The translations under genes were made by a program, and so were the position numbers. Below the pieces are notes generated by a model. The model saw only the letters and a list, made by a program, of their open reading frames with translations. It was not told the origin of the DNA and made no database searches. Shown here piece after piece: positions 36,663 through 41,440 of a DNA stretch of 64,000 nucleotides. The stretch spans positions 5,890,001-5,954,000 of the forward strand of contig NZ_AP022560.1 in assembly GCF_010726085.1 (NCBI RefSeq), in the 5' to 3' direction. Every line of letters begins with the position of its first letter. Position 1 is the stretch's first letter. This DNA comes from Mycolicibacterium moriokaense (lineage in GTDB: Bacteria; Actinomycetota; Actinomycetes; Mycobacteriales; Mycobacteriaceae).

Positions 36663-37460
36663 ATGGGCGCCCCTGTCGGACAGCTGACGCGGGGCACCAC
36701 CGGGTACAACCGACTGCGCCGCAGCGACCGCTGGCTGGTGCATTCGCCACGGGTGCGCGCCGCGCTGCTGTCCACCGCCGAGCCGTTGGTCATCGACCTC
36801 GGCTACGGCGCGCTGCCGGTGACCACCCTCGAACTGGCCGAACGCCTGCGGGCCGTGCGCGGCGACGTGCGCGTCATCGGCCTCGAAATCCACCCCGACC
36901 GAGTGGCGTCGGCACAGGCCGCCGGCGGCGAAGGTGTCGAATTCGCCTTAGGTGGTTTCGAACTGGCCGGCCGACGGCCGACGCTGGTGCGGGCGTTCAA
37001 CGTGTTGCGTCAGTATCCGGTCGACGCGGTGGCCGAGGCGTGGTCGACCATGCAGCGTCAGCTGGCTCCCGGCGGGCTGATCATCGACGGCACGTGCGAC
37101 GAGCTCGGCCGACTGTGCTGTTGGGTGTTGCTCGACGCCGACGGTCCACTGAGCCTCACGATGGCCTGCGACCCGTTCGCCATTGAGCGCCCTTCCGACC
37201 TCGCCGAGCGGCTGCCGAAGGTGCTGATCCATCACAACGTCGAGGGTCAGCCGATTCACACGCTGCTGACGGCGGCCGACCGGGCGTGGGCCACCGTCGC
37301 AGGGCACGGTGTCTTCGGTCCGCGGGTTCGCTGGCGCGCAATGCTGGATGCACTGCGCGACAGGAATTTTGGGGGCTTCCCCATCGATCCCCCGCGGCGG
37401 CGAATGCGTGACGGCGTGCTTACGGTGCCGTGGCCAGCCGTGGCTCCGCTTCCGCACTGA
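36663..37460 (+). CDS. Class I SAM-dependent methyltransferase-like protein
   Basis: A 265-residue protein with a Rossmann SAM-binding pattern: VIDLGYGALPVTTLELAERL (motif I, where the usual GxGxG is GYGALP), VRVIGLEIHPDRV (acidic loop) and LAPGGLIIDGTCDE (motif III region). The C-terminus is proline- and arginine-rich. Substrate unknown; no catalytic signature for a specific class. Its last 41 bp overlap the 3' end of the convergent symporter gene. It may belong to the mycobacterial backbone rather than the inserted DNA. Confidence 0.75.
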   Translation: MGAPVGQLTRGTTGYNRLRRSDRWLVHSPRVRAALLSTAEPLVIDLGYGALPVTTLELAERLRAVRGDVRVIGLEIHPDRVASAQAAGGEGVEFALGGFELAGRRPTLVRAFNVLRQYPVDAVAEAWSTMQRQLAPGGLIIDGTCDELGRLCCWVLLDADGPLSLTMACDPFAIERPSDLAERLPKVLIHHNVEGQPIHTLLTAADRAWATVAGHGVFGPRVRWRAMLDALRDRNFGGFPIDPPRRRMRDGVLTVPWPAVAPLPH

Positions 37461-38964
37461 CGGGCTCCGCCTCGGACACCTCGACGGCGGCCAGCGCGTC
37501 GTCGACGTCCTCGGCCAGCCTGATGTCCAGACCCCGGATCGGTGAAGCGGGCGTCAGCAGCGCGATGACCACGTAGGTGACCAACGACGCCGCGAACGCG
37601 ATGAACGTCGGCCATCCGTCGAACGACGCATCGATCAGCCCGTTGGGGATGTACAGGATCGTGTTCTCGAGGCCGTACATCGTCGGCGTCATCACGAACA
37701 GCACCAGGCGCACCGCGAGGCCGATCACGATCGAGACGATGGCCGCGGCGGAAGTGCCCTTGCGCCAAACCAATCCGAGGATGAACGGCACCACCAGACA
37801 CGCCAGCAGCAGATCGAACGCGAGCGTCAGCAGGATGCCGGTCTGCTTGACGTAGATCGCGATCAGGATCGAGACGAGCGTCATCGGAACCATCGCGGTG
37901 CGGGTGGCCCACAGCAGCGGGTCCCGCTGGCCCGGAACATGAACGCGCCGAACGCCGCCCAGGTTGCGCACCGAAACGTTCGATATCGCGAGGATGGCCC
38001 CGTTGGCGGTGCTCATGGAGGCCCCGACCAGGCCGCACAGCACGATGATGGTCAGGAACAGTGGCGCGTACTTGTCGAGCAGGACGAACAGGATCGGCCC
38101 GTCGAGTTCCTCGGGCATGAACGCCTTCGCCGAGAGCACGACGAGGCCGAACGGCACGCAGATCGCCACGACGCCGGTGGCCGCACCGAAGCACGCACGG
38201 CGTGCGGTCTCCGGCGACTTGGCGGCGAACACCCGCTGCATGAAGTCGATGGCGACGATGTCGCCGATGCCGAGCGCGATGAGCGTCGCCCAGTTGATCA
38301 CTGCGCCCTGCGCGGGATCGGTCATCTGGCCCATGTCGAAGGGGCCCATGCCCTCGGCGATCGCGATGCCGTGGGTGGAGGCCATCCAGATGAGCAGGCC
38401 GACGGCGCCGACGAGTACCAACGCCATCTGGATGATCGCGGTGTACGCGTCGGCGATCAGGCCGCCGGTGCCCGTGTAGGCCACCGCGAGCACCGCGATG
38501 ATGACGGTGCCCAGCCAGTAAGGGATGCCGAGGAAGTAGTTGAAGAGGAACCCGCCCGCCACCAGGTTTCCGGCGACGAGGATGCAGAACCCGACGATCA
38601 GCATCACCGACGCAGCAATCTCGACAACCCGACCGAAGCGCAGTCGGTAGTAGTCGGGGAAGGACGTCAGGCCCATCCGGTTCATCGGTTTGGCGAAGAA
38701 CAGGCCGGTGAAGAACAGACACAACGCGAGCCCCAGCGGCAAGCAGGCACCCGCCCAGAACCCGAACTCCGCAGCGAGGTCGGTGTTGCCGAGCGTGGCG
38801 TTGGTGTCGACGGCCGAACCCATCAACGCGCCGCCGACCAAGACGAGCGGCAGCATCCGGCCACCGACCAGGAAGTTGGCGCTGTCGCCGGCGATTCGCT
38901 TGGAAGCCAGGAAGCCGACGAGCACGACGACGGCGATGCTGATTCCTACGCCGAGAAGAATCAT
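37420..38964 (-). CDS. Sodium:solute symporter (SSF) family, probable guanidine uptake transporter
   Basis: A 514-residue membrane protein with about 13 predicted helices. SSF features: N-terminal ILLGVGISIAVVVLVGFLAS, AYTGTGGLIADAYTAIIQMA (the family GG-ADxxT-QM region), GASMSTANGAILAIS (sodium-site helix 8, with Ser-Ser/Thr) and a late EEL-rich loop. The ATG at 38964 is preceded by AGGAGA; an open frame extends 46 codons upstream but runs through the riboswitch and is not coding. The upstream guanidine-I riboswitch and the adjacent guanidine hydrolase make guanidinium the likely substrate (inference); an unrelated cation or urea is possible. Confidence 0.85.
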   Translation of the reverse strand: MILLGVGISIAVVVLVGFLASKRIAGDSANFLVGGRMLPLVLVGGALMGSAVDTNATLGNTDLAAEFGFWAGACLPLGLALCLFFTGLFFAKPMNRMGLTSFPDYYRLRFGRVVEIAASVMLIVGFCILVAGNLVAGGFLFNYFLGIPYWLGTVIIAVLAVAYTGTGGLIADAYTAIIQMALVLVGAVGLLIWMASTHGIAIAEGMGPFDMGQMTDPAQGAVINWATLIALGIGDIVAIDFMQRVFAAKSPETARRACFGAATGVVAICVPFGLVVLSAKAFMPEELDGPILFVLLDKYAPLFLTIIVLCGLVGASMSTANGAILAISNVSVRNLGGVRRVHVPGQRDPLLWATRTAMVPMTLVSILIAIYVKQTGILLTLAFDLLLACLVVPFILGLVWRKGTSAAAIVSIVIGLAVRLVLFVMTPTMYGLENTILYIPNGLIDASFDGWPTFIAFAASLVTYVVIALLTPASPIRGLDIRLAEDVDDALAAVEVSEAEPVSAEAEPRLATAP

Positions 38965-38973
38965 GGGGAGTCT

Positions 38974-39100
38974 CCTAGAAACTAGGTTGGAGCCTCCCGG
39001 GCTTTTGTCCCGCCGTGGAACGACCGGCGTCGCTGCGCAGCCGCTTGCGTCTCTCGGACCAGACCCGGCGAGCCGGCGGAACCCTAGGCGCGCCTCACAC
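38974..39100 (-). ncRNA. Guanidine-I (ykkC) riboswitch upstream of the SSF transporter
   Basis: Read on the minus strand, the 5' conserved block CTAGGGTTCCG lies at 39087-39077, GGTCCGAGAG at 39060-39051, and ACGGCGGGACAAAAGCCCGG at 39016-38997. These three in this order and spacing are the defining sequence of the guanidine-I aptamer. The end of the element leads into CCTAGTTTCTAGG (38986-38974), a small hairpin whose 3' arm contains the start of the AGGAG ribosome site, so translation control is likely. Ligand binding should expose the ribosome site and switch on transporter synthesis. Confidence 0.92.
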
Positions 39101-39203
39101 AACCGAATGTGAGTCGTCGATCAGACAAACTCCGATCCGTTACGGCGGTTCGCGCGTCGTGTTAACGATGCGTTGCAGTTCCTTCACCGCCTCCTTCACG
39201 GCC

Positions 39204-39261
39204 GAATCTGAAGTTCTGCAGGTAATCCGGTGGTTTCGCCTGCACAACCTCAGATTCGGTT
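39204..39261. other. Nested 58-nt hairpin between the two riboswitches
   Basis: The outer stem CCGAATCTGA (39204-39213) with TCAGATTCGG (39252-39261) and inner stem TGCAGG (39219-39224) with CCTGCA (39241-39246) form a long interrupted hairpin. It lies upstream of both divergent transcripts' structured leaders and could be an insulator, a regulator-binding site or part of the longer leader of the plus-strand gene. The remainder of the 438-bp gap (38965-39402) holds the two riboswitches and no open reading frame. Confidence 0.5.
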
Positions 39262-39348
39262 GGGCCGCATTGCCGTTACCCCCTGCCGGGTTCGCGAATC
39301 GCTGCCAAGATATGGACCCAGGAGCCGGCCAGCTTTCCGGTGGGCTCC

Positions 39349-39390
39349 CCGGACGAGGTGCGTCGTACCCGGCTTGCGACAAGACGGCGC
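39349..39390 (+). ncRNA. Guanidine-III (ykkC-III) riboswitch upstream of gdmH
   Basis: The 42-nt core begins CCGGACGAGGTGCG and ends GACAAGACGGCGC, nearly identical to the structurally characterised guanidine-III aptamer of Thermobifida fusca. Both pseudoknot stems are intact: CCGG (39349-39352) with CCGG (39369-39372), and GCGTCGT (39360-39366) with ACGGCGC (39384-39390), where one C-G pair is replaced by a U-G wobble. Three nucleotides after the core begins the ribosome site GAGGAG (39393-39398), followed by GTG 39403, so ligand-dependent translation is expected. Confidence 0.92.
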
Positions 39391-39402
39391 GTGAGGAGCC
39401 CC

Positions 39403-40551
39403 GTGACCGAGCAGAACGTCAACCAACCACTCAACGCCGAAGGCGCATGGGCCCAGCAGGCCGAGGCACGACTGCCGGAGCGCCGCGAACGCGAGGAGAT
39501 CGAGCGCAGCCTGGCGTACGGCCTCGAGGCGGCGCCGACGATCAACGACCGTCGCATCTCGACGTTCGTTCGCGGCGAGCTGCCCCATTTCGCGGGTGAA
39601 CGCGGAACGTTCCTGAAGTGCCCGTTCATCGAGGACGTGAACCAGGTCGACGACGCCGAGGTGGCGATCTTCGGGGTGCCGCTGGACGCGGGGGCGACGT
39701 ACCGGCCGGGCACTCGCTTCGGCCCACAGGGAATCCGGCGCTCCACCAACCTGTTCGGCACCTACAACTACGAGTCGGGTGTCGATCTGCGCGAGCAGCT
39801 CAACATGGTCGACATCGGCGACGTGTTCACCATCCCGGGCAACCTGGAGAAGTCCTTCGACCAGATCAGCCAGGCCATGGCCCACGTCGTGTCGAAGGGC
39901 GTCATGCCGGTCGTGCTCGGCGGCGACCATTCGATCGGCTTCCCGACCATCCGGGGCATGACGCCGTATCTGGACGGCAACGTCGGCATCATCCACTTCG
40001 ACCGCCACGTCGACACCCAGGAGTCCGATCTCGACGAGCGCATGCACACCACCCCGTGGTTCCACGCCACCAACATCAAGAACGCGCCCGCGACCAACCT
40101 GGTGCAGATCGGGATCGGCGGCTGGCAGGCGCCCCGGGCGGGCGTCAAGGTCGGCCGGGAACGCCAGTCGACGGTCATCACGGTCGGCGACGTCGAGCGG
40201 GTCGGTGTCGAGAAGATCGCCGAGATGGCGCTGGAGATCGCGTGGAAGGACGCCAAGGCGGTGTATCTGTCGTTCGACATCGACGTCATCGACGCCGGCT
40301 TCGTGCCTGGCACCGGTTGGCCCGAGCCGGGCGGCCTGCTCCCCCGCGAGGCGCTGAACCTGGTCAAGATGGTGTCCGAACCCGGCCTGGCAGGCATCGA
40401 GGTCGTCGAGTGCTCGCCGCCGTACGACTGGGCGGAGCAGACGGCGCTGCTGAGCTCGCGCGTGATCCTCGACAGCCTGGCCGCCCAGGTGCGGTCCGGA
40501 AAGCTCGGCAAGAAGGCCGCGTCGCTCGACCGTCCCGCCTGGGGCCCGTAA
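39403..40551 (+). CDS. gdmH: Guanidine hydrolase (ureohydrolase family; often misannotated agmatinase)
   Basis: A 382-residue ureohydrolase. Metal ligands are intact: GGDHS (H), HFDRHVDTQ (D-x-H-x-D) and SFDIDVIDAGF (D-x-D). In agmatinases and arginases the second motif is DAHxD; the Arg in DRHVD, together with DLDERMHTTPWFHATN and GWPEPGGLLPREAL, are features I recall from the nickel-dependent guanidine hydrolase GdmH rather than agmatinase. It would convert guanidine to urea and ammonia. A guanidine-III riboswitch sits directly upstream. The GTG start at 39403 follows GAGGAG by 4 bp. Loading needs nickel-chaperone genes, not seen here. Confidence 0.8.
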   Translation: MTEQNVNQPLNAEGAWAQQAEARLPERREREEIERSLAYGLEAAPTINDRRISTFVRGELPHFAGERGTFLKCPFIEDVNQVDDAEVAIFGVPLDAGATYRPGTRFGPQGIRRSTNLFGTYNYESGVDLREQLNMVDIGDVFTIPGNLEKSFDQISQAMAHVVSKGVMPVVLGGDHSIGFPTIRGMTPYLDGNVGIIHFDRHVDTQESDLDERMHTTPWFHATNIKNAPATNLVQIGIGGWQAPRAGVKVGRERQSTVITVGDVERVGVEKIAEMALEIAWKDAKAVYLSFDIDVIDAGFVPGTGWPEPGGLLPREALNLVKMVSEPGLAGIEVVECSPPYDWAEQTALLSSRVILDSLAAQVRSGKLGKKAASLDRPAWGP

Positions 40552-40627: not shown

Positions 40628-41440
40628 ATGCGCGTGGCCCTCGCACAGATCCGTAGCGACACCGACCCGTCGATCAATCTCGGCCTGGTCGACGAGTACA
40701 CGCGCCGCGCCGCCGACGCCGGTGCACAGCTCGTGCTGTTCCCCGAGGCGACGATGTGCCGGTTCGGGGTTCCACTCGCCGCGATCGCCGAGCCGCTGGA
40801 CGGGGCGTGGGCGACGGGTGTCCGACAGATCGCCGAGCGAGCGGGCATCGTCGTCGTCGCAGGCATGTTCACCCCCGCGGACGACGGCAGGGTGAAGAAC
40901 ACGCTGATCGCGACGGGACCAGGAGTCGACGCGCACTACGACAAGATCCACCTCTACGACGCGTTCGGGTTCAAAGAGTCGGCCACCGTGGCACCCGGCC
41001 ACGAGCCGGTGATGATCACGATCGACGGCGTCGGCGTCGGCCTCACGCTCTGTTACGACGTCCGCTTCCCCGAGCTGTACATCGAATTGGCCCGCCGCGG
41101 AGCACAACTCATCACCGTCCACGCGTCGTGGGGCACCGGCCCTGGCAAGCTCGAGCAGTGGACGCTGCTGGCTCGCGCCCGCGCGATCGACACCACCGGG
41201 TTCGTCGCCGCGGTCGACCAGGCCTATCCAGGCGACGAGATCGCCGCCCTCGGGCCGACCGGGGTCGGCGGCAGCCTGGCCGCCTCGCCGACGGGTGAAG
41301 TCCTCGCATCGGCGGGTGACGACCCGTCGTTGGTCATCGCCGACATCGACGTCGACGCCGCCAAAAAGGTGCGCGAAACCATCGCGGTGATGAACAACCG
41401 CGTGGACCACTCGTGGGGTAAGGCAGAATCGCGGGGATGA
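40628..41440 (+). CDS. Nitrilase/carbon-nitrogen hydrolase family protein (Rv0480c-like)
   Basis: A 270-residue CN-hydrolase. The Glu-Lys-Cys triad is present: LFPEATM (Glu), YDKIHLYD (Lys) and TLCYDVRFPEL (Cys). The family includes omega-amidases and beta-ureidopropionases; the short length and start RVALAQIRSD resemble Rv0480c, whose substrate is not settled (possibly deaminated glutathione repair). It overlaps the next gene by 4 bp (ATGA). This gene marks the right edge of the accessory DNA and resumes the conserved order. Confidence 0.88.
   Translation: MRVALAQIRSDTDPSINLGLVDEYTRRAADAGAQLVLFPEATMCRFGVPLAAIAEPLDGAWATGVRQIAERAGIVVVAGMFTPADDGRVKNTLIATGPGVDAHYDKIHLYDAFGFKESATVAPGHEPVMITIDGVGVGLTLCYDVRFPELYIELARRGAQLITVHASWGTGPGKLEQWTLLARARAIDTTGFVAAVDQAYPGDEIAALGPTGVGGSLAASPTGEVLASAGDDPSLVIADIDVDAAKKVRETIAVMNNRVDHSWGKAESRG

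Follow-up and report, generated by a model that had tools for sequence, protein, structure and literature searches.

Known guanidine riboswitch systems

The closest described systems are two operons. In Synechocystis, a guanidine-I riboswitch controls gdmH, which is accompanied by an ABC transporter and Ni chaperones, and in Nitrospira inopinata a guanidine-I-controlled guanidinase gene stands together with an APC permease (PMC12186494, PMC11410670). The ykkC-III RNA, now guanidine-III, was reported in 2010 upstream of actinobacterial emrE and speB genes (PMC2864571), and in Mycolicibacterium and others it also lies close to arr and SMR genes (PMC8492726). For one mycobacterium, a ykkC RNA was called automatically (PMC6582537). 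Guanidine-I and guanidine-III have both been reported as ON switches (PMC12186494). According to the accessible part of a 2022 review, guanidine riboswitches of whatever class were not observed in tandem, guanidine-I and guanidine-III being listed among the classes without such cases; the statement concerns tandem and not divergent riboswitches (PMC9481103).

The locus described here lies in a window of 64 kb, by which we mean the whole stretch of DNA analysed. We consider it likely that it is a divergent guanidine-use locus, in which two unrelated aptamers would switch on an importer and a guanidinase in response to guanidinium, where we infer ligand binding, the direction of switching and the substrate of the SSF carrier. 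As in the Synechocystis and N. inopinata operons, in so far as the accessible text of the two papers describes them, a guanidine riboswitch, a guanidinase gene and an importer gene occur together, and the genome contains a urease. Those systems have one class in one operon, whereas here there are two classes in two divergent units, the carrier is of the SSF type, and no Ni chaperone was recognised among the neighbouring genes scanned. With the cases in PMC2864571 the locus shares a guanidine-III RNA ahead of a "speB"-type gene; the opposed guanidine-I unit, present here, has no mention in the accessible part of that paper. Like the SAM-II/SAM-V tandem riboswitches, the locus brings together two unrelated aptamer classes for one ligand, but the SAM aptamers are placed in series before a single gene according to the accessible part of PMC9481103, while the guanidine aptamers lie on opposite strands and in separate mRNAs. 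A tandem riboswitch is defined by both aptamers belonging to one mRNA and one gene; with opposite strands and divergent units, the present pair is a different arrangement.

A divergent guanidine-I/guanidine-III pair was not described in the accessible literature searched; the founding papers of the classes lie outside its coverage, and priority is therefore uncertain. In the part of the literature searched, the terms "sodium solute symporter" and "SSF family" did not occur. What appears new is the arrangement; each part was already known. The locus allows two convergent guanidine aptamers to be compared side by side as they occur in nature, within the same cell, locus and pathway, it points to the SSF protein as a guanidine importer, and it makes guanidine use by mycobacteria directly testable.

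Two guanidine aptamers in divergent leaders

A search with all 4227 Rfam families (Infernal) gave two matches above the gathering thresholds in the whole window, in the leaders of two divergent genes:

37420-38964, minus strand: SSF sodium:solute symporter, 514 amino acids (PF00474, E 2.4e-23, 83.1 vs 22.8 bits)
38992-39098, minus strand: guanidine-I (ykkC subtype 1) aptamer in the symporter leader (RF00442, 73.4 bits, cut-off 63, E 3.8e-11)
39202-39259, no strand assigned: inverted repeat with 21-nt arms, 90% complementary, between the two proposed promoters; copy of a dispersed repeat
39326-39393, plus strand: guanidine-III (ykkC-III) match in the gdmH leader (RF01763, 58.1 bits, cut-off 36, E 2.1e-9)
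39403-40551, plus strand: gdmH, putative guanidinase of the ureohydrolase superfamily, 382 amino acids, with Ni-dependent relatives (structure matches, specificity residues)
40628-41440, plus strand: carbon-nitrogen hydrolase of the nitrilase superfamily (PF00795), 76 bp downstream of gdmH

Both covariance model matches are full length (1-107 of 107 for RF00442, 1-67 of 67 for RF01763), and 227 nt separate them on opposite strands. An earlier reading of the sequence alone had proposed that a 438-bp intergenic region holds two adjoining, divergent riboswitches of different guanidine classes, together with an Infernal run using the two models; the scores above place both classes over their gathering cut-offs, and the length agrees with the start codons, ATG at 38964 (-) for the symporter and GTG at 39403 (+) for gdmH. 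Under loose thresholds (38900-39450, E up to 10), the sole extra match was to the sRNA family Ms_IGR-8 (14.1 bits, cut-off 44), which is at chance level. A second copy of either class was not found in the 6,225,779-base single-contig genome at E 0.001.

For the inverted repeat at 39202-39259, four other genomic sites give five further matches with 72-81% identity, two being weak (E 0.07 and 0.25), so it is probably a dispersed palindromic repeat of this genome. No transcription terminator was found in 38940-39420. GlnR sites between the promoters were considered and rejected: the M. smegmatis consensus, as given in the accessible part of PMC3662644, matched in 2 of 19 intergenic regions, and two stricter patterns in 0 of 19. 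The nitrilase-type gene is possibly co-transcribed with gdmH. It also adjoins the SSF gene in species that lack gdmH, and therefore probably lies outside the guanidine system and is not specific for guanidine.

The hydrolase as a guanidinase

The plus-strand gene had been read as a ureohydrolase. This assignment stands at the level of the superfamily, and a published residue criterion refines it: judged from its sequence, the protein is the guanidinase GdmH, because its best solved relatives are two characterised guanidinases and because it carries their specificity residues. These relatives are the N. inopinata guanidinase (9fek, 512 bits) and Synechocystis GdmH (7esr/7oi1, 489 bits); the next solved relative, a guanidinobutyrase, scores 163 bits. 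According to the accessible part of PMC11410670, guanidinases are inferred from Thr105 and Trp313 (N. inopinata numbering), and further from His222 and Glu344. In alignments read by eye, with a numbering offset of two anchored on the tryptophan in both chains, GdmH of the window matches these residues with Thr99, Trp306, His215 and Glu336. Its metal-site motifs are GGDH, DRHVD and DID. Five NCBIfam models match GdmH, none of them over its cut-off; the agmatinase model TIGR01230 stays only just under (170.2 vs 174.3), and this would account for an annotation as agmatinase.

A urease alpha gene is present in the genome (173.9 bits). In a sister locus (L118, 1178-4031), a lone gdmH with a guanidine-III RNA about 115 nt ahead of its start is divergent from ureG and ureD, a neighbourhood that gives an independent hint of a route from guanidine via urea to urease.

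The SSF symporter as a probable importer

SSF proteins are importers as a rule. The SSF protein of the window is a probable guanidine importer, with the substrate deduced from gene context, because its relatives adjoin gdmH in other groups as well (Pseudonocardia, cyanobacteria). If the system instead served detoxification and not nitrogen supply, the SSF protein would act as an exporter or transport some other solute. This seems unlikely to us. The substrate assignment comes from context only, and SSF relatives in Nocardia and Glycomyces (53-58%) have no gdmH in the stretch examined, both of which would suit such a role; the usual direction of SSF transport, the gdmH neighbours in Pseudonocardia and cyanobacteria, the urease in the genome and the ureG/ureD genes beside the sister gdmH argue against it.

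In two mycobacterial loci (L153, L154), the SSF gene lies beside the nitrilase gene, has neither gdmH nor either riboswitch near it, and has, directly at its start, motifs resembling the symporter promoter proposed below. Elsewhere, the SSF start position in L151 (5001) reads ATC, and the SSF frame G139:C1:815973-817496 contains an internal TGA; decay or sequence errors are possible explanations.

The symporter leader

Two further features were assigned on the minus strand:

38966-38998, minus strand: predicted expression platform of the SSF leader (minimum free energy (MFE) folds; repeat in relatives)
39137-39165, minus strand: candidate symporter promoter, TTAACA (39165-39160), 17 bp, TAACGG (39142-39137), found by eye

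For statistics on guanidine-I, we used 42 mycobacterial aptamers positioned by the Rfam model, 19 from a sample of the genus and 23 reached via SSF loci. The blocks CUAGGGUUCCG, CACGG and CCCGGGAG occur in all 42, and CUGGUCC in 40 of 42. The guanidine-I aptamer read earlier in the SSF leader is borne out by the full-length RF00442 match. One adenosine, A46, distinguishes guanidine-I from its ppGpp/PRPP variants (PMC6031431, accessible part). We assigned A46, by inference from that paper, to the second A of GAGAG; the window has A at this letter, as do 41 of 42 aptamers (38 by script, 3 by eye), and L174 has G. The guanidine-I RNA of the window would be expected to bind guanidinium. A separate set of 34 leaders was picked by a pattern that fixes core letters including GAGAG, so that core invariance in this set is circular. 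In these 34 leaders, double changes that preserve the pairing were seen at 6 of 28 predicted guanidine-I pairs, and the covariation term is small (-0.87 kcal/mol).

The conserved 3' end of the aptamer, GGGAG at 38998-38994 (-), is predicted to pair with CUCCC at 38970-38966, and CUCC at 38992-38989 with the Shine-Dalgarno sequence GGAG at 38975-38972. The hairpin of the 38966-38998 segment has an MFE of -13.9 kcal/mol, or -4.5 without GGGAG (z -1.5 against shuffles), and also appears in the MFE fold of the window's symporter leader. Of the 42 symporter leaders, 37 have the strict repeat GGGAG-R-CUCC ... GGAG-(R)-CUCC (17 of the 19 from the genus sample, 20 of the 23 from SSF loci), as do 28 of the 34 pattern-chosen leaders, with 3 of the 34 lacking a start codon by pattern; in the 64-kb window the pattern matches once. 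Five non-mycobacterial aptamers compared (L189, L192, L196, L218, L222) lack CUCC at this place. Across the 34 leaders, the median hairpin energy is -12.2 kcal/mol, and -4.3 with GGGAG withheld. Compared with shuffled sequences, the hairpin does not stand out (median z -1.8; 12 of 34 leaders below -2), and in a crude ensemble test on the same leaders withholding the aptamer 3' end did not show release of the Shine-Dalgarno sequence (median free fraction 0.02 to 0.07).

A translational ON switch would be the likeliest mode of the SSF leader, because the terminal GGGAG can form a hairpin that hides the Shine-Dalgarno sequence and because 37 of 42 leaders preserve the repeat. The published guanidine-I RNA differs in being a transcriptional switch (PMC12186494, accessible part).

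TTAACA-17 bp-TAACGG is the probable symporter promoter. Its columns are largely conserved across 19 aligned intergenic regions; a consensus scan gave no sigma-70 site.

The gdmH leader

On the plus strand, the guanidine-III match was resolved into the following features:

39321-39348, plus strand: hairpin ahead of the guanidine-III core, GGAGCC 39321-39326 / GGCUCC 39343-39348 (sequence, Vienna fold)
39349-39390, plus strand: guanidine-III aptamer core (both pseudoknot stems in the sequence, RF01763)
39394-39398, plus strand: Shine-Dalgarno sequence AGGAG of gdmH, 3 nt past the last paired aptamer base

The stems of the H-type pseudoknot are CCGG 39349-39352 / 39369-39372 and GCGUCGU 39360-39366 / ACGGCGC 39384-39390, and both pairs named by the sequence-only reading are found in this segment. 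The hairpin ahead of the core is longer than in the Rfam alignment, and its inner part is longer than in most relatives compared. In the Thermobifida fusca structure, the ligand contacts are C6, G7 and G17 (PMC5696562, accessible part); with the numbering placed by inference, the corresponding letters of the window are C, G and G at 39354, 39355 and 39365. This RNA, too, would be expected to bind guanidinium.

Guanidine reportedly frees the Shine-Dalgarno sequence of guanidine-III leaders and also shields the mRNA against RNase E (PMC12186494, accessible part). We presume an expression platform of this class in the gdmH leader; the folding picture is inconsistent. With the P2 stem forced and the pseudoknot strands free, median access to the gdmH Shine-Dalgarno sequence went from 0.57 to 0.51 and rose in 9 of 25 leaders. 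This folding was confined to those 25 of the 34 loci whose core a pattern recognised as standard; the pattern overlooked L166 (= G113), L167 and L170, all three of which have a guanidine-III RNA according to the Rfam model.

Five relatives (L159, L173, L174, L177, L179) carry an inserted segment in the guanidine-III RNA before gdmH and give no Rfam match at E 0.5; two of them, L177 and L179, also have altered core letters. L174 combines the insertion variant with the changed guanidine-I marker letter. Such variants, and the G in place of A at the L174 marker, are what one would expect if one aptamer were worn or had switched its ligand, leaving only one unit responsive to guanidine. For the locus of the window we regard this as quite improbable, because both aptamers score well above cut-off and have standard letters at the positions checked.

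Proposed mechanism

In the mechanism that we favour, intracellular guanidinium would bind both unrelated aptamers in the divergent leaders. In symporter mRNA free of ligand, GGGAG would pair near the start codon, and the hairpin would close over the Shine-Dalgarno sequence; ligand-bound guanidine-I would retain its own 3' end, GGGAG, and translation of the importer would be on. In gdmH mRNA, the ligand would fold the guanidine-III pseudoknot, which ends 3 nt short of the Shine-Dalgarno sequence, leading to more translation and/or greater mRNA stability. The SSF protein would import guanidine, GdmH would split it into urea and ammonia, and urease would complete the route; this sequence of import, hydrolysis and urease is suggested by the gene content.

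An "independent tuning" of uptake and breakdown by the pair, as proposed earlier, is a hypothesis, and both switches are expected to be on with the same ligand. A more tentative idea, rather less likely than not, is that evolution has kept two unrelated folds on the opposed units to let import and breakdown react to separate guanidine levels or through separate mechanisms (translation block versus mRNA stability), in a system with a previously undescribed SSF guanidine importer.

Conservation in mycobacteria

The divergent pair is conserved across mycobacteria. In a sample of 148 genomes of the genus (in the GTDB sense), 81 have a guanidine-III match, which exceeds the cut-off in 79, and 44 have a guanidine-I match, which exceeds it in 23; the divergent pair occurs in 19 genomes. 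The gaps between the two aptamers range from 113 to 227 nt, with 113-123 nt in 14 of the 19 and 117-119 nt in 12; the gap of the window, at 227 nt, is wider in part because the repeat at 39202-39259 sits in it. The pair was also found in 18 of 26 mycobacterial genomes reached via the SSF gene. These 26 were selected from 80 loci of SSF proteins, 3 are labelled merely as actinomycete MAGs, and one (L224) equals G051 of the genus sample by its match coordinates, so that 25 are additional. The total comes to 37 pairs (19 + 18), without duplicates among the 36 compared; L214, which was outside this comparison, has a pair visible in its sequence. The eight genomes without a called pair are the four with a guanidine-III variant that evades the model (L159, L173, L174, L177), L153 and L154 (SSF, no gdmH and no riboswitch at the locus), L160 (guanidine-I, no gdmH) and L224 (no gdmH and no guanidine-I at the locus).

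In the genus sample, guanidine-I over cut-off lies beside the SSF gene in 22 of 22 genomes with an SSF protein of at least 70% identity (28 matches, minus five at 48-50% and the broken copy in G051). A called guanidine-III RNA lies upstream of gdmH (at least 80%), no more than about 120 nt from the predicted start, in 30 of 33 genomes (35 matches, minus G086 at 56% and a fragment in G058). The three gdmH genomes without a called guanidine-III are G002, G028 and G043, the last of which (L179) has the insertion variant.

The central earlier claim, that unrelated guanidine classes head the divergent leaders of a transporter and a hydrolase, is hence backed by the covariance models, the ligand-site letters, the identity of the hydrolase and 37 mycobacterial loci. 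The two units may nevertheless be independent modules that happen to be neighbours, their pairing having no regulatory meaning beyond the common ligand. This reading is compatible with the proposed mechanism, and we think it has only slightly less than an even chance of being right. Nine genomes (L105, L108-L110, L112, L117-L120) have gdmH with guanidine-III and lack both a neighbouring SSF gene in the stretch examined and this SSF in the genome, while L140, L141 and L160 have SSF with guanidine-I and no gdmH in the stretch. Guanidine-III is moreover the common sensor of the genus, with an SMR-like gene after 55 of 90 guanidine-III places according to a signature script; one example was confirmed as SMR, its best model being SugE, under its cut-off. 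What speaks against mere neighbourhood is that the pair is kept in 37 loci and that its gap stays within 113-123 nt in 14 of the 19 genomes of the genus sample.

Related loci outside the genus

By their content, 37 of the 80 SSF loci are mycobacterial; gdmH is present in 33 of the 37. Among the 43 non-mycobacterial loci, 16 have gdmH (at least 59% identity), and five haloarchaeal ones have a ureohydrolase of 33-35%. Three of four Pseudonocardia loci (L192, L196, L218) and an actinomycete MAG (L195) have guanidine-I, gdmH and SSF in this order on one strand; the fourth Pseudonocardia locus (L193) has gdmH and SSF, and no guanidine-I reaching cut-off. In Virgisporangium (L189) the order on one strand is guanidine-I, SSF, gdmH, and in two cyanobacterial loci with converted coordinates (L217, L222) guanidine-I is ahead of gdmH, with SSF further downstream. 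Four Nonomuraea loci have divergent gdmH and SSF genes with a gap of about 50 bp, in which no riboswitch was found (L184 and L186 at E 0.5, L187 and L188 at cut-off). Their gdmH is 83-86% and their SSF 59-61% alike to those of the window; this difference is a hint of either separate histories or horizontal transfer. Among 394 genomes sampled across the class, seven were seen to have divergent pairs, all from the genus of the window (G000, G011, G078, G122, G132, G141, G531); G212 and G352 carry both families and were left unjudged, as their guanidine-III places were not listed.

The simplest history would be an ancestral gdmH-SSF unit under guanidine-I that was rearranged in mycobacteria, where SSF kept guanidine-I and gdmH gained guanidine-III. 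The RNA acquired by gdmH would then be of the class that otherwise serves mycobacterial SMR exporters.

Several loci contain ykkC-like RNAs that differ from guanidine-I at the marker. In L056, L057, L058, L061 (1501 to about 1613) and similar others, the RNAs score 54-59 bits (cut-off 63), read GAGCG for GAGAG and have an altered 3' part; they are possibly a variant with another ligand. Those of L056, L057 and L061 precede a TauE/SafE-like membrane protein (by eye, with Pfam on L057). Two further ykkC-like RNAs, L060 (1501-1596, 55.1 bits) and L054 (1501-1597, 66 bits, over cut-off), have GAGGG at the marker and precede a creatininase-family gene (PF02633; nearest model MftE, under cut-off; L060 scanned).
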